A stretch of DNA of 64,000 nt, taken from assembly GCA_963969595.1 (NCBI GenBank), contig OZ018408.1, positions 18,163,823 through 18,227,822 of the forward strand. Reading direction: 5' to 3'. Each line of letters begins with the position of its first letter. Position 1 is the stretch's first letter. The notes under the pieces are model-generated. The model made no database searches and had not been told where the DNA came from. It saw nothing but the letters and a program-made list of their open reading frames with translations. A program made the position numbers and the translations under genes. The stretch is from Neckera pumila (taxonomy: Eukaryota; Streptophyta; Bryopsida; Hypnales; Neckeraceae). Of this stretch, positions 26,116-40,108 are shown piece by piece.

Positions 26116-27200
26116 CTATTTGCACATCGTTGTGACACTGCATCCTACAATCTTATTTAGTCTTTGAAAGACTAGACATGGAATGCTATCAAATACTAAA
26201 ATGAGGACTACATTTTTCAAACAAACTAATGACATGAGATTATAGATGAGATCATACACTAAGTACACATCATGCATTTTTATTCCCTTAGTGCTGAACA
26301 GGCTTGCATTCTTTTTACTTTCCATGGGTAAAACATGGCCTATAATTGTTTTGACCACAGAAGGCCTTACTAACTCTTCTATTGTTGTGAACACCTCTAG
26401 ATTGCCTCCAACACATTTGGTAGCCCCGCTATTTACAATCCAATTATTTGCCTTTTTGAAGTTCATTTTACAAATAGCTACGTTGAAATAATCTACAAAA
26501 TTTGGTTATGAGTAGACTACCTTTTTGGTTATTATGTTGGAATAGTAAGTTTGCATGCTATGTTCATGTCTTGGTGCTATGTACCTCTCAGAGTGTTTGT
26601 TTGGCCATTTCTTTTGCCAAATGTAAGCAATTCTTCATCAAGTGGTTATTATCTTCTCCACAAAAATTGTATGGGCCACTGATTTGTTGCCCTAAATAGT
26701 GTTAGTTGAACTATTGTTCTTGTGCCGTAGATGCCACCTCTATTTTGATTCAAAACCATGTTGAGATTTGATACTTGGACTACTAGTGCATCCTTTCAAC
26801 AAACCATTTCTTGAATTATTTTGGAATGCAGCTATTACTTTTGTTTGTAATAGTCTTGTCATCAAGTCAATGAGAGATGGTAATGCATTGAGGTCTAAAA
26901 TGTTCTAGTAGATAGAGTCAAAACTCAGAGGGAGGTTATTGACCATTCTTTCTACAAGTTCAATTTTATGCATGCATTTTTGCTCCTAGACCTCTAAGTT
27001 CAAATTGCATTTCTTGTACAGTACTTAGCAAAAGCACTCTTTGACCAAAGATACTTCATGCAAATTCATAGAGTTTAATATATCCTTTAGGAGTAATCTT
27101 ATTGCATTGCCATTTGTCTGATATATTTGAGCTAATCTATTCCAAAATACAAAAAAAGGTTCATGACTCTCTATTTGTAAAAAATGCTCTTTATCTTCTA
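26116..27200 (-). pseudogene. Ty1/copia Gag and protease remnant
   Basis: On the minus strand, 27180-26870 encodes copia Gag-like sequence with FWNRLAQIYQTNGNAIRLLL, then LPLSFDSIY and LPSLIDLMTRLLQTK. Near 26700-26640 is a decayed zinc knuckle, YNFCGEDNNHLMKNC, in which the first Cys is replaced by Tyr. The open frame 26466-26116 begins with the protease region NWIVNSGATK, where the catalytic Asp of the family DSGAT motif reads Asn. Several frame changes separate the parts. The RT/RNase H part lies at 23.0-23.8 kb. Confidence 0.8.
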
Positions 27201-28017: not shown

Positions 28018-28615
28018 TGAAAGATGAGAAGAAAAGATTTTTATACAAGTAGGGTGATAGGGTGTAAAACAATCCATGTGGGATGCATAAGTTAGAATTA
28101 CTAGGAGCTCAACCGCTCTTAGTAAAGTGAAAAGTAGGGATTGGGTTTAATTTAGAATTCTAAGCCTCATTTTGGCTTAGTAGAATAATTTTTCCAAAAA
28201 AATTTGAACTAATAAATTTAGTATATTCAAATAAATTTTATCTCCAAACATTTGTTTGAGATTTCAAGTCTCCAATCAAAAGTTATGGCCAAGTTTGAGT
28301 GAGTGGTTGCTTGGAAGGAACATTTTCATTGACACTTTTGAGCATCCTCTCTAAATTTTGTCCATAATTTTTTTCTAGAGTCTCAAAGTTAGACACAGAT
28401 TTTTGAAAATGAAAGTTAGATTTATTTTCCAACTTTTTTAAGTTAAAAGTTTCTTTAAGTAAATTATTATACCATGCCAAAATGAGGTCTAGAATTCTAC
28501 ATTGAACATAATTCCTATATACAATTGACAATGAGTGGTCAAGTTCTCATCTTCAAATTATTCCATACCCTTTGAGGATTTATGGCAAACAATGGATTTG
28601 ATTATAAAAATGACC
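28018..28615. mobile_element. Large foldback element, copy 2, split by the 11.5-kb transposon
   Basis: Diverged copy of 17905-18475. Shared blocks include TTTATACAAGT, CCATGTGGGAT, TTAGAATTA, TAGTAGAATAATTTTT and AAAATGAGGTCT. It also folds back on itself. Its right end is cut at 28615 and resumes at 40109: the joined text ATAAAAATGACC+TCTCCACCCT parallels ATATAAACAACTACTTCACCCT in copy 1. This gives a related empty site for the big insertion. Confidence 0.8.
28606..28615 (+). repeat. Target-site duplication, left copy
   Basis: AAAAATGACC, identical to 40099-40108 at the other end of the 11.5-kb element. A length of 9-10 bp is typical of Mutator-like elements. Confidence 0.85.
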
Positions 28616-28830
28616 AACGATGCTAGCATGTGAGCATGTGACCGTGAGCCTAAGAGCGGTGAGCGGGGATTGTGTGAGCCTAGAGCCTGAAAATAAAAAA
28701 CTTGATGTAATTTTTAAATTTATTTGGTTAAAATGTAAAAAGATTGATTTTGTTTATTATATTTAGAAAAGATGCCCTATTACCACTAGACCTATGACCG
28801 TGGGTTTTATATCTAAAAGCCTGGAAAGTT
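28616..28830 (+). repeat. Left terminal inverted repeat and subterminal motifs
   Basis: Starts AACGATGCTAGCATGTGAGC. Within the next 60 bp the string GTGAGC or GTGAGCC recurs (about 28629-28690). The inner block AGACCTATGACCGTGG lies at 28788-28803. These repeated short motifs are candidates for transposase binding sites. Confidence 0.75.
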
Positions 28831-29133
28831 GGCGTTATTGTCTGTTTTGGAATTTATATATACATTTAGAGAGGCCGTCCAAGGGTAGACTAATTAAGTG
28901 AGAATACATATAATTTAGAGGCAATTTCAAAGATGAGAAGAAGATAAATGCAATGAAAATATCATAGGACGTGGAACACTATGTACATAATAAAATATTC
29001 TTTCATTGCAGCAAGGAATACATATTGGAATATAAATATAATATTTTGCTACTCAAATTTGGAGATTTTGAAGATAATATATCGGTACTACATATCTACT
29101 TTATATCATGCTAATATCTGTCAATTAACTTGG

Positions 29134-32100
29134 TCACTCGTATGTCTTGATGATTCCGGCCGTAATAAGCACTTGTTTACCTTTGTCCAAGCTGAGGGTA
29201 GGAGCGTGGATGAATGGATGTATCTTATAATCCAATTTGCACAAATAACGAAAGACATAATAAAGATGTTTGCAGTTAACGTACATGCCACGCTTTCCAA
29301 TGGACATCCCATTCATACTTCCATAATGGGGACAAGTACAAGATGGGAAATTGCAAAGAGTAATGCTGTAAACCTTCTGGTTAGGTTCAGTCCTAGAAGA
29401 AAGAGTAATAATAGCACCAAATCTAGGATAAGGAAGGAAGTTTACACCAGTAATACTTGCAGTAACATTCCTTGCACTTTCCCACTGATTGCGATGATTT
29501 TCAGTGGGCGCCTTACTATTCCGTCGAACTTGCTTGCCATTTCGAATGGAAGGGATTCTTTCAGCATGTGCTGGTCGAGGATGAGTCCAGAGCATAGGCT
29601 TAAATACCCTAGATGAGGTGAATAGACGTCGAGGTGACATTGGCACACTAGATTGCAGGTGAAATCTAGCTTCTTCCAACTCTATGATTTCAGTACGAGT
29701 AAGATTGGTACCAATAAGAACAGGCTAGACGTTAGGGATCTCGGGTCGTGTAAGAACATGAGAACGTTTAGGTCATATGACACATCGTGCAATTTGATCT
29801 GCACAAAACCAGAAATCCTCGGTCTGAACAGTCGTGCCCTTATATTCACGCTTTTGTCCTTTGTAAGTAGGAGCAGCAGTAGGTTTACCATATCTAACAA
29901 TTAGTAGCTTGCATTTGGCTTGTGTGTACTTCTGAATGGCAGACACTGCTTCCTTGACTTGTGTGAAATTCTCGCTATGTGCCACTCCGATGTATTACAA
30001 TCTGTTTTCACCACAGATTGGGTATGGGGCATGACTGTATTAAATTCCTCACTTTCAGCCCCGATTTGTACACTAGCAACGGCTGATCTAATTTGAACTC
30101 AAAGATGGGAAAAGTTCACCTTGTCAGGGCGATGAGAATCACCTTCAGAACCGATTAGAAGATCCAATTTTCTTTTGCCGGACTCAAATACCTCTTTTCC
30201 CTCCAAATGCGGAATTCGGGTGCAGATGTCTTCCGCTCTAGGCATCTGACTTAGAGCGTCTGCAATTTTCTTCCCATCTCCAGATGCCATAGCTCTCTTC
30301 AGTTTCAAATCTTCTTTAGAGGGGCCCTTCCCAAAAGGGCCTTTGCAAACATAAGCCCTATAATTCGTCATTTGCATAAAAGCTCGAACCCAATCATCGC
30401 AAGTGGCTACAAACAAATTAGACCCGGGTTTGCCAGAAGCTTGCATCCATTTATTATGCATTGTTTCTGCAAGGTTGCACGTTGGGATGTCTGCTAGTTC
30501 TTCAGTTGTCAGTTTCTGCAAAGATGATGATGAAGTCATTATTGGATTGGTTTGAAATGTAAAAAAAGATATGAAAAAAAGAATGAGAGTGAAGATCATA
30601 CCGTTTCCATGAATCCACTCCACTGTCGATATTGAAAGTGCCAAAAGGCCAGCCAATCCTCGAGTTCACGAATTGCCGGTTCTGATGCAGCTTCGGAGGA
30701 ATACCACCACGCTCTAATTTCTAGATACATTTTGTCCGCCTCGGACATTGATGTTGCATCCTTGTATTGCCTGCACAGTCGGATATGCTGGTTTTGGAAC
30801 TCTTTTGCAATTAGCTTCTCTATATGCTTGTGCATGCTTGTTGCCCAGTGGAACAAGCAAGTCCTTTCACGATCCACCATTGGAAGGGATGGATCCCCCG
30901 ACCCATATACAATGCAAACTCCATTGAAGTTGGCTTGAGCATTATCGCACATGAATCCCTTGAAGGTTGGATCTGACATCCCATTTTGTGCCATGACCTT
31001 ATTCAGACAACACCAAAAAATGATTTGACCTTCGGTGCCTTCAGTCTGCATATCACAGACGGCAATGGTCATGACTTTGCAGTAGTAGAGTCATAGACGT
31101 GACAAGCAATAGTTGTCCATAATTTCACCCTCTTCACATGGTCAAACATGATGAAGCAATTTCCAAGGTCGCCATTTGGTTGCATCCGTCGTACAAGATC
31201 AACACCGCTCCCAGGTCCATCCACAAGCATCTTGAACAAATAGACCTTCTCTTGTCCTTGTCCTGGAAATACACTATCATGGATATACTCCATTTTGGCA
31301 CGTCCCTTCATGTCAAGAATCCGATCAATCTCACCACCTCCTTTGTTGTTGTTCTTAAAAGAAGATATCATATTCCGCACATTCGGCGAGCTAAGGAGTT
31401 GGAACTTATCCATGACATTCTCTAATGCATTGCCATGGAGCATCTCCTTTGGTCTGGGTCCATTGTGAATCAGAAATGTATCAAGGAACTCCTTGCTTGT
31501 CGCTATGGTAATGGCAAAAGTTTTAGCAGTTGGAGTCCTTGCCACTTCGTGAGCAATCAATCCGGTGATTGCTTCGAGAGACTCTCTACACTGGCCATCA
31601 GCAACTGGATGTGAATGAACATCCAAGTGGATCGCTGCACGTGACAAATTTGCAGTTCTCTGTACATAATAAATCCGCAAGTTACATAGACTGAGACAAG
31701 TAGGAGGTTGTCTACAAACTTTACAAAGCACAGTAGACTCTAGTAGAGGAATCTGGCCTATGTTGAAAGGATGCTTGGTGGTCCCAATTCACTCAGTTTC
31801 GTTACTTTTTGAAGCTCGTGTGTGATAGTCACATCTTGGATTCTCACAAATCAAATGCCCAACACAATGCGACTTTCTGAACTTTAAACCGAGGTCGTTA
31901 TGGATGTTAGAGGTCATAGTGCGACTCCATGCATGACCATCATACCGTTTATCCATGCCCTCCATGCCCCTAGATCCACATGTGGATCCACGACACGGTG
32001 GTAGCTCAAAAAGAACATCGCCATTAAATCTAGCTAGGAGGAATTGGATGTTCTGATATTCAATGGCATCAAAATAAATTTGGGCAAGTTCATTCCGTGA

Positions 32101-32751
32101 TCCGGGCATAGAAGACAATTTTCGTAGACACTGTAATACAATTAGGGAATCACAATGATTGAGAGGAAGAGGAGGACGAGAAAATCCGGACGATGCGGAA
32201 CTACTAAAGGAAGAACGAAAGGCAGTAGGAACAAATGACTCCACAGTAGGTGGCAAAGCAACATTTGAAGAAAAAGGTTGACAGACTTGAATTGGTGTCT
32301 CGCCTTCAGAATCACTGGATAACTCTATGACTAGTTCTAAAGACTCGCGTTTGACATCATTGACATTGAACATAATTATATTCTCAGACCATCCACTAGC
32401 TAGAGATTCCACTTTGACTGGACATACAAGTGGGAGTTCAACATTGGAATTATCAGAAAGGGGTGTCAATATTTCAGTTGAAGTTGGCAAAAGCTCAGGC
32501 GAGAGACCATAAACTCTGAAGCGCCCTGCAAAAAGAAGCCAGTAGAACCCTTTTTGATCACTACATTTTGATTGCAAGATTGATTCCTTAACAACGCCAT
32601 AGTCATCTTGGACTTCTTCCTCTATGACAATAGAAGAAGGGGAGAACCCAAAGCGGACATGAAGGAGATGGGCGGACACATGTACAAAACCTTGACTACC
32701 TAATGGTAAAACAAATGGGACCTCATGACCTCTTGCAACAATAGTAGCCAT
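29134..32751 (-). pseudogene. Mutator-like transposase (zinc finger, DDE-like core, SWIM), decayed
   Basis: On the minus strand from ATG 32751, a 320-codon frame ends in a zinc-finger-like segment (HLICENPRCDYHTR). One in-frame TGA at 31789-31791 interrupts it. The same frame continues through CKVCRQP and HLDVHSHPV, consistent with a WRKY/GCM1-type C-C...H-x-H finger. The transposase core follows: MFDHVKRVKLW, then after a 1-nt frameshift at about 31072, GFMCDNAQAN, CLFHW and LAFWHFQYRQW. A GT-AG intron spans 30516-30601 and joins FMET to KLTTEELADIPTCN. After a stop at about 30099 and another frame change near 30000, a frame with a TGA near 29770 leads to the SWIM finger: CTCPHY and NCKHLYYVF (29250-29360). 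MULE transposases cut and join DNA at the terminal repeats. At least four lesions make it non-functional; one stop could instead mark an unrecognised intron. Confidence 0.85.
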
Positions 32752-33557
32752 ACTGAAGTGTTACATAAAGTTGCAGGGAAGTTGCAGCATTAGGAAGCAA
32801 GCAATGATGTTTACAAATGCAAGGGGTGTGAATATAAAGAAGAATAAAAGCTTCTACGGTTGTTTGAAATGAACGGACATATATCAGGGATGCCGTATAA
32901 TTTGAAATTGGATTGATGATTTCAATGCTTGTTATTGTGTATCATATCAAGATTTGCTCTAGAAGAAGATATATCAACAACATTTGAAATGAATTTGGAT
33001 AAGGCGACGTACTGCGTAGTATCAATTAGTAAATCAGAAATAATAAATGAATTATAATACTTGACAATGTATCATTTTCTGTCAGACAATATTAGTAGAA
33101 TTAAAGCTGGCACTGATAGGAGACGATAGATCAAAATGCCTTATATTGCATAATCCCTGACATACTTGCAATGATAATTACATATCTTTAGATAGGTAAA
33201 GTTTTTTTCATTGATGATAATGTGAATAACAGACATATGAAACCGTCACTTACTTATAAAATTGAATTCTAATTTTGTGGAGAATAGCTGTTGAAGTTCC
33301 TTAGAATATAAAAGGTTGCAGAGTGGAATGAAGCAGTATGTAGAAACGCATGTTGCAAGAAGTGGGTGATGTAGTATGGAGGATTGGAGGATTGGAAGAT
33401 GCTGATATTGTAAGGCCCTACTAGTTTATTATTTCAGATGCAAGGATACTTGTTTTCTCCATTGTTAGCGTTAGACACTCCAGTTTAAGGTAGGAAGAAG
33501 AGGAGGAAGAAAAGTAGTTTTCGTTATTCAAGTAGAAGGCAATTGTTAAGGGCTAGA
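32752..33557. promoter_or_regulatory. Divergent intergenic region between transposase and ParB/methyltransferase genes
   Basis: The two genes are transcribed away from each other, so this 0.8 kb must hold both 5' leaders and promoters. I cannot assign TATA boxes. A stretch at 33489-33557 stays open upstream of ATG 33558 and would encode a very basic sequence (RKKRRKKSS), so the true plus-strand start may be further upstream. Confidence 0.5.
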
Positions 33558-36500
33558 ATGACTAGACGGGTGCCTCTAATTAGTGCGGTTGATCTGTCTG
33601 GCACAACGAGGAATTTGACGTATGAAGGTATTGTTTCATGTGAAGCAATTGGAGAAGATAACGTGGAAGTTGAACCCGTCTCTTGCGAAGCTCAACCAGA
33701 TATTGCCTCAAGCTGTAGTGATTGGGATCAAGATATTAACGAAGAAGAGGAGGAAGAACAACAACAACAAATAGCCCCAACAGTAGAATTGGAGCAGGAG
33801 GTAGGAAGCACAAACACAATGGTAAGGAAATAATTATCCCAAGTGATATTGAGTTTGAATATATGTGAAATTTTTTCTTAGAGGCAGATTTTGCAACTTT
33901 GCATCATTTCATGCGCGTCGAAATCCCGATTCCAGCAGTATATAGCATGTAAAAAACGGACAAATATTGAGTATCTTATGCCCTAAAAACTAATTCAACA
34001 TCTTAGAATCTTCCCTGAAATGTTCAGTTTCTGATGATTTTTAGGCAAAATCCAGCACTTTTATTTTTAGCAGTTTTTGCTGATTTTTATAAATTCGCTC
34101 AAGTGTCCTAAAATTCTGAAAAAAATTGGAGTGAATTTGACGTGTATAATCTATGGGTATAAAAAAATTTGGCTTGAAATCTTAAAAATTGAAGAAGTTA
34201 TTTAGAAGATTCCCTTGAGCTATATCTACCAATCTCTTCTTTGTTTTTGTTTTTTGTTTTTTTTGGAGACTAGTTTCATCCTAACTCTTGTGTTGTCTTT
34301 GAACGTCGTCTTTGAAGGCGCTGAGGCAACAACCAATGAGGGAGGGACAAGAAGCGATCACCATGGAAGAGGCGGAGGTTGCGGTGGAGGCTACAGCGGA
34401 ATCTGTGCGGCAAGATGGACAAGGAAGAAATCACGAGACAAGTGCAAGCATTGAAGGAAATCCAGGTATGCGGCTTTTTTCTTGGCCTTCCTAGACCCCA
34501 GCCGTTAACGGCTGCGCTTTTTTGGGTTCCGATTTAGAATAGTGTATGCTAGGATTCCGTCCAATGGTGCAGTTTCTTTCACCTTCTCACACCCCAGCCG
34601 TTAACGGCAGCCCTTTTCGGGAGTCAAACTTTCCTATTCTGCGCATTAGAAATTAGGTCGAACATAGTAATTTTTCACCTTCTCACACCCCAGCCGTTAA
34701 CGGTAGCCCTTTTCGAGATGTAGAATTTTTTTCCCCCCGGTTCAGATTTCAGATTCATTGCTGAAATTTTTTAGCATCCTACACCCCAACCGTTAACAGC
34801 AGCCCTTTTCGGAATGTAGAATTTCTTCCACCGCAGTTCAAATTTCAGATTCATTGCTGAAATGTTTTAACATCCCACACCCCAGCCGTTAACGGCAGCC
34901 CTTTTTGGGACGTAGAATTTTTTTCCCCCCCGGTTCAGATTTCAGATTCATTGCTGAAATTTTTAGCATCCTACACCCCAGCCGTTAACGGCAGCCTTTT
35001 TCAGAATGTAGAATTTCTTCCACCGCGGTTCAGATTTCAGATTCATTGCTGAAATGTTTTAGCATCCTACACCCCAGCCGTTAACGGCAGCCCTTTTTGG
35101 GATGTAGAATTTCTTCCACCGCGGTTCAAATTTCAGATTCATTGCTGAAATGTTTTAGCATCCTACACCTCAGCCGTTAACGGCAGCCTCTTCTAAAACA
35201 TAAATTTGCTTGCTATGTATATTACGATTTCCTTCAATGCTAAATTTTTGGAGCCTTTCTAAGCTGCAAAAGTTAACAATTGTTATGTCAAATTACATAT
35301 TAATCTTTTTCTTGATGTCATTACAGAGATCATGACACAAAGAGATCCAGACGCACCGGGATTAGATGTCGTACACCAGCCTCTTTCTGAGGATCAATTG
35401 GAGTTACAATTGCATGGCTTTTTGAAGAAAGAGACTGTCAACACATCTTTTCTTCTTGAGCGGTTGAGGTATCAACCAAAGGCAAAATCAAAAATCAACA
35501 TTCCTTTGTATCGTATGATTTCTTTGCCAGTTGTGAGGCCCTTTTTGAAGAATGATGTTATGAACCTTGCTGCACATTTTGTTACTTGCGGTTACATGGA
35601 AGGAAATGGAGTTTTTTATGTGACCTTGGAGGACAATGAAGGAAAGACAGTAGATGTCACGGATGATATTGTTAAATCCTGGAGTGCCAATTGGGTGAGG
35701 GCCAATGCTGCATTTGAGAAAGAATTGGAGAATGATGAAGATCTCAAAGTTTTTGCGGGCAAGATGTTTATGGTATGGGATGGCAACCATCGTCTGCAAG
35801 CATGGCTGCCTATTATCAACCGCGATCATGCAGATGACTTCATCTGGCATTACGCGGTTGAAAGTATTTTTTTGGAGGTTAAGGGAGATATTGCAACTAT
35901 GTTGGCAGCATTACATGAAGTGAATTGGTAATCTCTTTTCTTTATTTATCAAAGTTTGGTTCATTTCACTTCTTAGTCACTAAAGGTTGTTTGGTTTGAA
36001 ACATTGGAATTGTTGCTATTCTATATTTTTTTTCTTTCATGTTCACTTCACAAATTTTAACACAATACATCTTGTTTGTCCAGGAGAAACCAAAAATCCC
36101 ATGTTTCTATAAATCTTGTTCACAAACTTTATCACATTCAGAGTATTGCTGGCCAACCACTCTCATATTTTGAAAAACTTGTTTCCAAAGATGATCTTGT
36201 TGCAGCTGAAGCAAAGCAGAAGTCAAAACAAAGAACATGGTTCACTCTCACTCTTGAGGCTCTAAATGGAGTCTTATACCAGGTAAATTTTTAAAGTTGT
36301 ATTGGCCACTTCATATTTTGTTTTCAATTTTTATGTCTTCTTTTTGTTCTTATTGTTAATTTGAATTACTATCCTATGAATCATTGTATATATCATTTGT
36401 CATCGTGTGTCATTTTTCTTATTCTTATACATCAATTATCTTATGCAGCAAGAGTTGGGAGAGTCTGCTGCAGCTGCTCAAAGGAAATTTTATGAGAAAT

Positions 36501-39397
36501 ATCCCAATCCAGCAGATTGGACTCCATCTGCAGTTCATGAATGGGTCTCTAAAGCTATTGACAAGGTCAAGATAGCTTCTCATTCTGAATTGAGGAAACA
36601 ACTTCCTATTGCAGATCCAAAACACACGACTGCCTTCTTAGAGCAAGTGAAGTTTCACTATGAAACTCACGATGAAAGTCCAGAGATGATTCAAGAGAAA
36701 CTTTGGATGCTAGCAACTTCAGCAATGGACACTTCTATGAAGATCAAGTGGTTAGAGAGGTGGAACAAGTCTCCTTCTCTTCGCGAAGCGCTCAAATTTC
36801 CTAAGTCAAAATTCAATGATATTGACTTCCCCGAGTGGCTTCATAAAGCTACATGGTGGGCTCAAGTGAGTACTAGTCTTGTTTTTTTTTTCATATTCTT
36901 CCTTTGAACCTTTTTGTTCAATCATAACATTCTTCTAATCTAAATTTTGTATGTCACAGTTGGCTGTTGAAACAAAAAAGCTATTTGATGCCACAGTAGC
37001 TGATCTGGGAGTGTCTATTAACTATCTTCCAGATGGTATGGATCCTTTGCCCACAATCTTTGATTATGTGGAGTCAGTGCGCATATTGTTGTGGGATGCT
37101 GCATTTTTCTGTGAATTTGATGTGGATAAGGGGATCCACAAGAACCATAAGATTGATAAACAACTGAACTTCAAACCAGCTATGCAAAGGGTGCTTTACA
37201 GATACTTCAAGTATGTCCTTTTTCCTACTAAAGCCATTTCCAAATCTCCTGCTTTCTTTGCAAATTACTTGGACAAAGAAAGTGAAGATTGCATGTTTAC
37301 AGAGGGGATCATGAGTTCTTGGGATCCCTTGCATTGGAAAAGGTGTGGGTGGTATTTGGATTGTCCTTTCAAAAGACCTCCCACTTTTGACATTGCCCTT
37401 CAAGGTTCCATTGAACCTGCACTCAAAGGTACAATCGTAGTTACAACGGTGGATAAAGATGCAACCAAGAAGACAAGAAAGACAAAGGCTAAGCCAAAGA
37501 AAGAAATAGTTTATCTTGATGATTCCAATGAAGATGTGCCAGTTGAAGATAGTCTCAAAGACCTTCTTGTTACTGGACCTTCTTCTTCAAATGTTGAGGC
37601 TACCCTCCCCCTTCAAAGCGACAAAAGACTATTTCTACTCCTGTGGTTTTGGTGCCAACTTCTTCTCCTATCTTTGAACTTCCTCTCTAACTTAAAGGTA
37701 TGATGAGTACTTTGGCTCCTTTGTCGTCCCCTCGTACATCCTTGGAGTTGATCTTAAATGATTCTTTTGTTAGAATTATCGAGGAGAAAAAGAAGACTGG
37801 TATATTTGGCACGCCATATGACGACATTGTATCTTTTCTATCAAAGGTGAGTTCATTCTTTTTATTGGTTTTCTTTGCTATTTCATGTTTCATTGTTATG
37901 AAATCTTACATGTTCTACAAAATTCATCTCTTCGAATCCATAATGTTTTGTGCCTTTAACATCTTCAATTATGAACTAACATTCTATAAATTTGTCTTTG
38001 TAGGTTGGTGAAGGCAGGGAGTTTTTTTTTGATGGCAAAGTTCAAAAGAAACCTGCAGTGGATCTCATCATTGCAGATTATCCAGATGGTTTTCCAATTC
38101 TAGGGGTTTCAAATCCACCATCTCAAATTCCCCACTGGAATGCCAACATTCCAGGTTTTCTCCAAATAATGATGGCATTTTGTCTCACCTATCTTCATGA
38201 TGATGGAGCATTCCTTCTATTTTATCCTGATAGTTTGACGGTGAAGAGAGAAGTGGCAGGATTCTTCAAAAACTACAAGTTGAAGGTCAAGGATGAGTGG
38301 ACTATCGTTAACTGTTTGCACTTGGCTAATCCTATGAATACAACTAAAAAAGTAAGTTGCAATTTCAAACTTTTATTTTTGTCATTGATTCATTTTTTAT
38401 TGTATTTCCTTCGATTTTATACGCACTTTCTAATTTCATTTGATTTTCATTCCAGACTATGAAGTTCAAGGCTTTATTGTTGGTTCGATCATTTGCTTCT
38501 CCCATTACAAGGCAACCTCGGGAGTTTGTGATTACTAATGATCCTTCTATTCCCGAAGTTGATTTAGCCACAAATGACGTCCTCTTCAATTCTGTTACTA
38601 TAGCAAGTCAATTATGTAGAAAGGAAGATGGCAAGCCATGGAGGGGTGCAAAAGAAAAGTCTGAGGTTCTAATGAAGCTTTTTGTTCATGGCTTGAGTCC
38701 TGTAGGTGGCATTGTAGCAGACATGACTGCCTCTACAGGTATTGTAATCTACAATATTGACTTACTTCTTTCTCTATTTTTTGTTTGATTTTTAATTCTA
38801 TTCTTCAATTTTGATGTTTCATAATTCATATATTGTGTTTCACTCAGGTTCTTCTATTAAAGCGGCACATTCTTCTAATCGCCATATCCTTGCACTAGAA
38901 AGTGATGTCAAACTCTTTGATGAGGTACGGAAGCCTCTAAAAACACCTATAACCATCTCCAAAAATCTAGATTCTACTACCACACGTGATGGTATGGACA
39001 TTGATGATGACTCTCCAATTGAAGACGTTGCACTACTTGACTTATGTAAGTAAGTTCTTATATTATTCTACTTATATTATTCCTTTTCAACAACTTCAAT
39101 TATAAATCCTATACCTTGTATTTTAATTTGTTACTCCATTTTTGATATATGGTTTATTGTTTGCAGTTGGATGACTCCATTGCCAAGGCAAACCTTGCCT
39201 TTTTATCAGCACCCTAGATTTTTAGAAGTCCCTCTCTTAGTCCTCGTGGCTTCCTTGTTTATGCTGAAGATTTAGCATTAGCTTATGCTAATGATTCATC
39301 TGATTCATCTTCAATTTCTCAATCTCCTCGTAGATCTTATGATCCTAGAGTATGTTCTTATTTTGAACTCAGTGCATCTGAGTTAGACGAAATCTAA
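33558..39397 (+). pseudogene. ParB-like domain fused to permuted DNA amino-methyltransferase, intron-rich, decayed
   Basis: Exons with GT-AG borders in phase: 33558-33821, 34318-34465, 35327-35927, 36084-36282, 36449-36865, 36960-37846, 38004-38351, 38456-38738, 38848-39053, and a remnant 39167-39397. Exon 1 is acidic (EEEEEEQQQQ). Exon 3 looks ParB/sulfiredoxin-like: LPVVRPFLKNDVMNLAAHFV then MVWDGNHRLQAW (about 35772-35806). Exons 7-9 resemble a beta-type N6/N4 methyltransferase, with motif IV region VDLIIADYPDG (38058-38090) before the SAM-binding motif I region GGIVADMTASTG (38706-38738) and acidic LALESDVKLFDEV. The usual DPPY-type tetrapeptide reads DYPD, so catalysis is doubtful. The middle (36084-37560) is a domain I do not recognise, ending in a basic linker KKTRKTKAKPKK. 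Lesions: frameshift in the C run at about 37605-37611, TAA at 37688-37690, stop at 39051-39053 and TAG at 39215-39217. Confidence 0.75.
34496..35190 (+). repeat. Eightfold array with exact 96-bp period, palindromic core
   Basis: The core GCCGTTAACGGC (or a one- or two-base variant) starts at 34501, 34597, 34693, 34789, 34885, 34981, 35077 and 35173, always 96 bp apart. Each is preceded by CCCCA or a variant (CCTCA at the last). Spacers become near-identical from the third unit on (CAGATTTCAGATTCATTGCT). It fills the intron between exons 2 and 3 of the ParB/methyltransferase gene. CCGTTA on both strands of the palindrome fits the CNGTTR-type MYB core. Confidence 0.95.
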
Positions 39398-39959
39398 GTT
39401 TATTTTCATAATTTGATATTTTATTCCTATTGTCTTGTTTTTCAAATTGAATTTGCCTATACATGATGTAGCAATTTGCAATTTGAACATAGCAATGATG
39501 TAGCAGTGTAGCAATTCAAATCCCATTTGCTGCCCTAAAACTTCACCTTGTGCCTAAATTGTCAATACCTTATGAGCCTTGATTTGTACTCCACCACTAA
39601 ACTATATGAAATTTTAGGAAGTTGAATTTAACTTGGAATTCAATGAAACTACTACCATTAGATTAATTATGTAATCAATTAAAAATAGTTCCCCCCAAAA
39701 GGGCATCAACTAGAAAAATAGTGGTTTAGGTCATTTGGGATTTACACATTCATTTGGTATATAAAATATGACTACTATGTTTATTTTATGTATTACATGT
39801 TCAAGATATTTTTAAAATTTTAAAGCATAGTTATAAAAATAAAATAAAATAGGTGGACCATTTTCATTCTTTAAATTTACATGAAAGCCTATAGATCAAT
39901 TTTTGGTACAAAATCACATAGTGGCATATTCATTTGTTGTTCATTTGGATTGTAGATCC

Positions 39960-40098
39960 TTTCATATAATTCCACGGTCATAGGTCTTTAACAAATTTAC
40001 AAATCCTAAATTTCCAAAAAAAAATTGAAGGCTCACAGGCTCATAGGCTCACACGCTCACAGGCTCATGCTCATAGGCTCACATACTAGCATCCCCGT
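39960..40098 (-). repeat. Right terminal inverted repeat and subterminal motifs
   Basis: Read inward from 40098: ACGGGGATGCTAGTATGTGA, then at 40030-40083 about six overlapping GTGAGCCTAT / GTGAGCCTGT units. The inverse of 28788-28803 lies at 39972-39987. It matches the left end in the terminal 16-bp core and the inner block, with a shorter spacing between them. Confidence 0.75.
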
Positions 40099-40108
40099 AA
40101 AAATGACC
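40099..40108 (+). repeat. Target-site duplication, right copy
   Basis: AAAAATGACC, identical to 28606-28615. Confidence 0.85.

Follow-up and report, generated by a model that had tools for sequence, protein, structure and literature searches.

The 64,000-nucleotide stretch of DNA analysed here (the window) lies within contig C1 of an assembly of 339.5 Mb in 18 contigs, which was also the genome searched, and contains a whole Mutator-like element (MULE) with two genes on opposite strands (Table 1). The minus strand carries a transposase gene, while the plus strand carries an intron-rich accessory gene for a protein with a predicted ParB-like domain and a C-terminal domain related to DNA methyltransferases; the second intron of this gene contains a tandem array of palindromes. 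The first base of the element is C and the last is G, and the arms of its inverted ends, 39 nt long, show 72% complementarity, with GATGCTAGNATGTGAGC exact at each end. An earlier inspection of the letters alone (the sequence-only reading) had noticed related inverted ends and a 10-bp target duplication, and both were confirmed, with TAAAAATGAC present on both sides; the element that it proposed at 28616..40098 was confirmed as well, but both limits had been set one base too far to the right. The features of MULE membership that are present are the 10-bp target-site duplication, the terminal inverted repeats, and a predicted IS256/MuDR-type DDE transposase. A perfect 16-bp subterminal inverted repeat, AGACCTATGACCGTGG, was also found inside both element ends, at window positions 28788–28803 and 39972–39987.

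Searches of the genome with the transposase and the ParB exon yielded lists of about 40 best scored places each (for the ParB exon, the best 40 of 90 candidates), and 10 further copies were fetched from the 39 other ParB-exon places listed. The sequence-only reading had proposed to look for more copies and for co-occurrence of the two genes between the same ends; nine of the 10 fetched copies indeed align over the full length at about 95–97% and carry both ends and both genes. For copy L013, the left part is missing from the fetched stretch, with a transposase place at a distance of 24 kb. An exact 10-bp duplication surrounds 8 of the 11 copies (the window and the 10 fetched); the duplication of L015 matches at 9 of 10 bases, none was seen for L027, and the left end of L013 lies outside the fetched stretch. 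The end pattern occurs at 578 sites in the genome with up to two mismatches, compared to none for the reversed control pattern. The close copies are one family, moved by independent transposition events. Two short elements of about 6.5–6.8 kb, L035 and L036, have the same ends and are about 75% identical; they are internal deletions that retain the 3' half of the transposase, the ParB exons, and both ends.

The accessory gene was modelled with GT-AG introns, and every exon of the model is contained in 11 of 11 close copies. The junction of exons 3 and 4 recurs in P0235, a protein of the moss Ceratodon purpureus. The gene is broken in the window, where exon 6 is one base short and a stop follows; the length of this exon is 887 bases in the window and L013, 885 in L009, 891 in L019, and 888 in the other seven of the 10 copies. 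Only L025, with about 1,115 codons, has neither a stop nor a frame change in exons 1–9 among the 11 copies. As one read-through chain, the accessory gene had no protein match among 7,997 candidates scored, multi-exon genes being probably split in the database, and for its relatives on viral contigs patterns were matched and none was confirmed.

The action of selection on this gene was assessed by comparing the majority sequences of two subfamilies, A (the 11 close copies) and B (six copies, L029–L034, gene region only, all six with broken accessory genes), with one stop codon excluded. The comparison revealed 109.5 synonymous and 64.5 amino-acid changes, corresponding to a ratio of nonsynonymous to synonymous rates (dN/dS) of 0.145 (binomial P = 3e-32). 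Exon 3 accounts for 30 synonymous and 11 amino-acid changes, and the corresponding ratio of proportions (pN/pS) for the methyltransferase exons is 0.21 each. The bias is much weaker in pairwise comparisons of close copies (pN/pS of 0.46–0.85), which we read as decay following insertion, and for this reason the subfamily comparison was used to assess selection. The accessory gene is under purifying selection, and is selected cargo rather than a passenger; the low ratio between subfamilies together with the weak bias among close copies indicates that the still-moving lineage retained the accessory protein. The suggestion of the sequence-only reading that an accessory gene had been kept is thus borne out by this ratio and by the many copies between the same ends; the bacterial capture that it also proposed is conjectural. 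MULEs are known to capture host genes, and a Pack-MULE-style passenger without function for the element was considered and rejected as very improbable, given the selection on the gene, its occurrence in families whose ParB parts share no more than about 34% identity, and the full exon set in the close copies.

The two genes are also paired well beyond the copies that were fetched. For 33 of the 41 listed transposase rows, a ParB exon lies within 30 kb, oppositely oriented and at the expected side; two of these rows are one element, and in two pairs the partner lies as far as 13 kb and 24 kb away. All 25 listed transposase rows with at least 96% identity have the opposite-strand gene, in 24 cases at a distance of 3.9–6.1 kb. 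A chance pairing of both genes was rejected. Of the eight transposase rows without a listed partner, four were fetched, and three of them (L038, L039, and L040) do carry the gene. L039 and L040 represent other families, in which the gene order and the opposite strands are kept, while the amino-acid identity is 65–69% for the transposase core, 35–47% for its N-terminal part, about 34% for the ParB part, and 37–41% for exon 7. The sequence-only reading had named copies with the transposase and without the methyltransferase gene as evidence against it; none was found among the 25 close places, and the exceptions are L037 and the deleted derivatives.

Like mudrB, the accessory protein could be a transposition helper, which would bind or nick the DNA of the element or bring its ends together, and the transposase would use the array for docking or as an enhancer. 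Such a role would fit the close association of the gene with the transposase, seen in the close family as well as in two distant families, and nuclease-active ParB domains have been described in PMC5512222. However, the array is situated about 5–6 kb from each end, and a helper function leaves the methyltransferase-type domain unexplained, so that we regard this explanation as quite unlikely.

Table 1. Location of the element, its genes, and its repeats in the window
Feature	Position	Strand	Remarks
Whole MULE element	28615..40097		11,483 bp; same boundaries in 9/10 other copies fetched
Target-site duplication, left	28605..28614		TAAAAATGAC
Target-site duplication, right	40098..40107		TAAAAATGAC
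Terminal inverted repeat, left	28615..28682	+	Contains direct repeats resembling GTGAGCCT
Terminal inverted repeat, right	40044..40097	-	
MULE transposase gene	29135..32751	-	GCM-like zinc region, predicted RNase-H/DDE core, SWIM-like C terminus
SWIM-like zinc motif C-x-C...C-x-H (CTC...CKH)	29251..29340	-	Read by eye
NLAETMH, proposed catalytic Glu	30456..30476	-	Read by eye
GFMCDNAQAN, proposed second catalytic Asp	30929..30958	-	Asp invariant; our own assignment
FDHVKR, proposed first catalytic Asp	31129..31146	-	Near-invariant among homologues; our own assignment
Zinc-ligand stretch CKVCRQPPTCLSLC	31684..31725	-	GCM-like domain by our own assignment; GCM structure match
ParB-methyltransferase accessory gene, modelled exons 1–9	33558..39045	+	Exons 1–2 and a last exon from 39167 uncertain
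Intron-2 array, 8 registers of about 96 bp	34501..35184	+	Palindrome GCCGTTAACGGC; registers counted by eye
Exon 3, predicted ParB-like domain	35327..35927	+	DGNHR at 35779–35793
Exon 4	36084..36282	+	
Exon 5	36449..36865	+	
Exon 6	36960..37846	+	
Exon 7, methyltransferase-like domain	38004..38351	+	Motif IV DYPDG at 38076–38090
Exon 8, methyltransferase-like domain	38456..38738	+	Motif I DMTAST at 38720–38737
Exon 9, end of methyltransferase-like domain	38848..39045	+	HILALESD

Two defects interrupt the transposase gene in the window, a stop near 31790 and a frameshift near 31080, and its frames are longer in other copies. A search revealed 141 homologues, of which 120 were listed, none of the listed ones with a precomputed Pfam domain, and a Pfam scan of 24 transposase sequences gave no match to a MULE model and chance-level matches alone. 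The structure predicted for the homologue P0001 (mean predicted local distance difference test score, pLDDT, of 74; predicted template modelling score of 0.43) had as its top match in the PDB the ISCth4 transposase (E = 5.2e-4, probability 0.99), a member of the IS256 family. It also matched the GCM DNA-binding domain 1odh (probability 1.00, E = 1.2e-3), while the remaining PDB matches listed were a designed binder with a probability of 0.87 and others at no more than 0.41. On the grounds of the ISCth4 and GCM structure matches and the length of the duplication, the minus-strand gene is assigned to MULE transposases, with a predicted IS256/MuDR-like type. Of the SWIM-type MULE transposase recognised by the sequence-only reading, the MULE part is upheld by the structure match and the duplication length, and the SWIM motif was read by eye.

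Outside the element, a Pfam Pol_BBD fragment adjoining it on the minus strand (window positions 26116–26505) is a remnant of a retrotransposon Pol gene, and an Rfam scan of the window found nothing reaching the gathering score.

Exon 3 of the accessory gene is predicted to have a fold of the ParB/sulfiredoxin superfamily. A search with this exon alone identified 116 homologues, and those named by organism are two proteins of Ceratodon purpureus, P0175 (56% identity) and P0235, whose locus tags begin with M758_UG and whose contig is 112 Mb long; on this ground the host is probably a moss. Comparison of the ParB part with Pfam, NCBIfam, PHROGs, and PDB sequences gave chance-level matches at best, and no phage match was obtained for it. 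The possibility, raised by the sequence-only reading, that the ParB-methyltransferase gene is an ordinary host gene was addressed by a genome search for canonical ParB_N genes, in which none was above the cut-off and a single weak match looks like chance; on this side the possibility gained nothing, but 8 of the 40 listed ParB places have no partner among the listed transposase rows, which we weigh below.

The C-terminal domain matched the profile PF01555 in four of six sequences and phrog_3008 in five of six, and DpnA is co-linear with it; the methyltransferase-like sequences of the window and L025 fall under the Pfam cut-off. Motif IV precedes motif I, as in permuted N6/N4 DNA methyltransferases, and a relationship to these enzymes is supported on the basis of sequence. 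Phage matches for this part were weak, the best of those listed having an E-value of 0.3. The catalytic motif [DNS]PP[YFW] (DPPY) is found at none of the 25 loci. Its position is occupied by D[YVM]P[DE]G at 22 of 25 loci and by DCPDG, DYLDG, and DYPYG at the remaining three, such that an acidic residue (Asp or Glu) takes the place of the aromatic one at 24 loci and none of the 25 retains the first Pro. Most sequences have DxTA[SA]T as motif I rather than the usual Gly-rich form, while the acidic residue following the second strand is kept in all five sequences in which the end was read. For the plus-strand gene described by the sequence-only reading as intron-rich, with ParB-like and permuted methyltransferase domains, the predicted fold and the relationship are upheld, but the catalytic DPPY is not.

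Because of the replacement of DPPY by D[YVM]P[DE]G, DNA methylation by the accessory protein appears doubtful, and the idea that it marks the element ends in this way is weaker than was assumed, the motif being altered at all loci read. Nevertheless, the protein could be an active DNA methyltransferase whose ParB-like part targets element DNA, where an adenine or cytosine, for example in the GTTAAC of the palindrome, would be methylated as a mark. The clear relationship to permuted N6/N4 enzymes, the conserved acidic residue, the purifying selection on the methyltransferase exons, and the palindromes, which suit such enzymes, are consistent with this, as is the 4mC or 6mA modification predicted for a similar Ectocarpus protein in PMC12477816. 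Given the changes in the DPPY motif and the rarity of the Gly-rich motif I, we consider such an activity rather unlikely. When the methyltransferase exon of L040 was compared with the genome, 382 candidates were obtained, and all of the best 150, which were scored, had E-values of no more than 0.001. The family of this exon in the genome is large, with open frames of up to 447 codons; the transposon context was read for the fetched places, and a host gene may be among the rest.

Tandem Repeats Finder (TRF) describes the array in intron 2 as 5.2 units of 96 bp. By eye, the 12-bp palindrome GCCGTTAACGGC is perfect in six of the eight registers, has one mismatch in another, and is more degenerate in the last. 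Seven GCCGTTAACGGC sites were observed against 0.02 expected, and no perfect copy is present in the window outside the array. The core site CGTTAACG occurs 3–12 times per copy in all 11 close copies, with a spacing of 96 bp or its multiples, and 4–7 times in L035–L038. The array is also present in two elements of about 75% identity, in which the unit outside the palindrome has drifted: when the units of the window and L036 are compared in element orientation, all 12 palindrome bases agree, against 40 of the remaining 84 (P = 3.6e-4). An ordinary minisatellite without binding function, with the protein acting elsewhere, would agree with the free variation of the unit number and with the different array of L040, but not with this retention of the palindrome relative to the rest of the unit, and we find it unlikely.

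Bacterial ParB loads on palindromic parS sites and then spreads. In the explanation that we prefer, while giving it a little less than an even chance, the MULE carries a selectively kept ParB-like, methyltransferase-related protein as its own recognition factor, which loads on the palindrome array in the intron. The ParB-like domain would bind GCCGTTAACGGC, and from there the bound protein would spread over the element, in the manner of ParB at parS in bacteria; the methyltransferase-like domain may hold S-adenosylmethionine or DNA, and may methylate weakly, differently, or not at all. Bound in this way, the protein could mark the element as self and, by analogy with VANC, counter host silencing or license transposition; an action of the VANC type would consist in binding to the element's own repeat motif and removing cytosine methylation. 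This self-recognition is proposed on account of the VANC21-like arrangement and the loading of bacterial ParB on parS. A more specific version, in which land-plant MULEs have a parS-like system, with a ParB-like clamp that loads on the array of its own gene and spreads over the element and a methyltransferase that, its catalytic tyrosine exchanged for an acid, has turned into a reader or holder, parallel to VANC and of unrelated origin, is put forward only tentatively.

Several observations weigh against this explanation. For the ParB-like domain, the best ParB match in Foldseek has an E-value of 0.04, and none reaches 0.001; the exon-3 model has a pLDDT of 81 in the best of five predictions and of 74, 62, 57, and 56 in the others; the Pfam profile ParB_N (PF02195) does not match the ParB part of exon 3; and the Arg of DGNHR is replaced by His in 5 of the 17 copies of subfamilies A and B. 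As for the pairing, besides the eight partnerless ParB places, no accessory gene was found within the 7.6 kb fetched for L037, a transposase place of 92% identity. The comparison of array units was made at the best-match rotation, which is partly set by the palindrome, and the other orientation was also computed. GCCGTTAACGGC is lacking in the fetched stretches of L039 and L040, and therefore the target would have to differ between families: TRF found no array in L039, and at the matching place of L040 (3135–4694) there is a tandem array of 10.5 units of 148 bp without GCCGTTAACGGC. Finally, the array might be used by the transposase or in splicing, or have no function.

The statement of the sequence-only reading that no plant transposon with this pair had been described holds in so far as no land-plant case was found among the top matches listed in the open literature, where an earlier report is possible, but the pairing itself is known from algal elements. 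PMC12477816 describes the Ectocarpus element Sola1-1_Ec32, in which a gene with ParB-like and N6/N4-type methyltransferase domains lies opposite the transposase, and cites ParB-methyltransferase proteins for transposons of green and red algae, the giant red algal elements being EnSpm; for the Ectocarpus element, its section 5 mentions neither the catalytic motif nor selection nor a palindrome array. The accessory gene is on the opposite strand in both Sola1-1_Ec32 and the element studied here, with 1,104 residues in the former and about 1,115 codons in L025, whereas the former is a Sola1 element of a brown alga and the latter a MULE; the green and red algal proteins have, by the same account, the same domain pair (PMC12477816). 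These likenesses are drawn from description. The element thus matches the algal layout, in which a DNA transposon bears a single gene on the opposite strand that encodes both a ParB and an N6/N4-type domain, and in view of the Ectocarpus and other algal cases the pairing in itself was already known. As far as the open-literature matches listed go, four aspects are new: the occurrence in a MULE and probably in a land plant, the selection measured on the gene, the change in the catalytic motif, and the array of palindromes. ParB-methyltransferase accessory genes are hereby extended from algal Sola1 and EnSpm elements to MULEs of a likely land plant, in many copies, and the combination of a candidate site, a conserved motif change, selection, two subfamilies, and many copies makes the function directly testable. 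The distribution could show how different transposon superfamilies recruited one bacterial-type module against host silencing. If the parS-like reading is true, parts of bacterial partition and modification systems would have formed a self-recognition or anti-silencing complex.

In bacteria and phages, ParB-methylases use DPPY-type catalysis. The VANDAL elements that carry VANC belong to the MULE superfamily, and we know of no ParB or methyltransferase domain in VANC. Among the polyvalent proteins covered in PMC5512222, ParB-methylase and DdrB-like ParB proteins have a ParB-type domain fused or linked to an adenine methylase, including cases in mobile elements; unlike the protein described here, they are prokaryotic, from bacteria and phages. 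Retrotransposons of dinoflagellates and charophytes likewise carry DNA methyltransferases (DNMTs), but these are C5-cytosine enzymes according to PMC5890265. The target motifs of VANC21, as presented in PMC5735166, are located in tandem repeats, including repeats in an intron of the accessory gene, and the repeat number differs by copy. Like the VANC of Arabidopsis VANDAL elements, the element studied here combines an accessory protein with a tandem-repeat array that is also situated in an intron of its own gene, and this array is a candidate target (PMC5735166).

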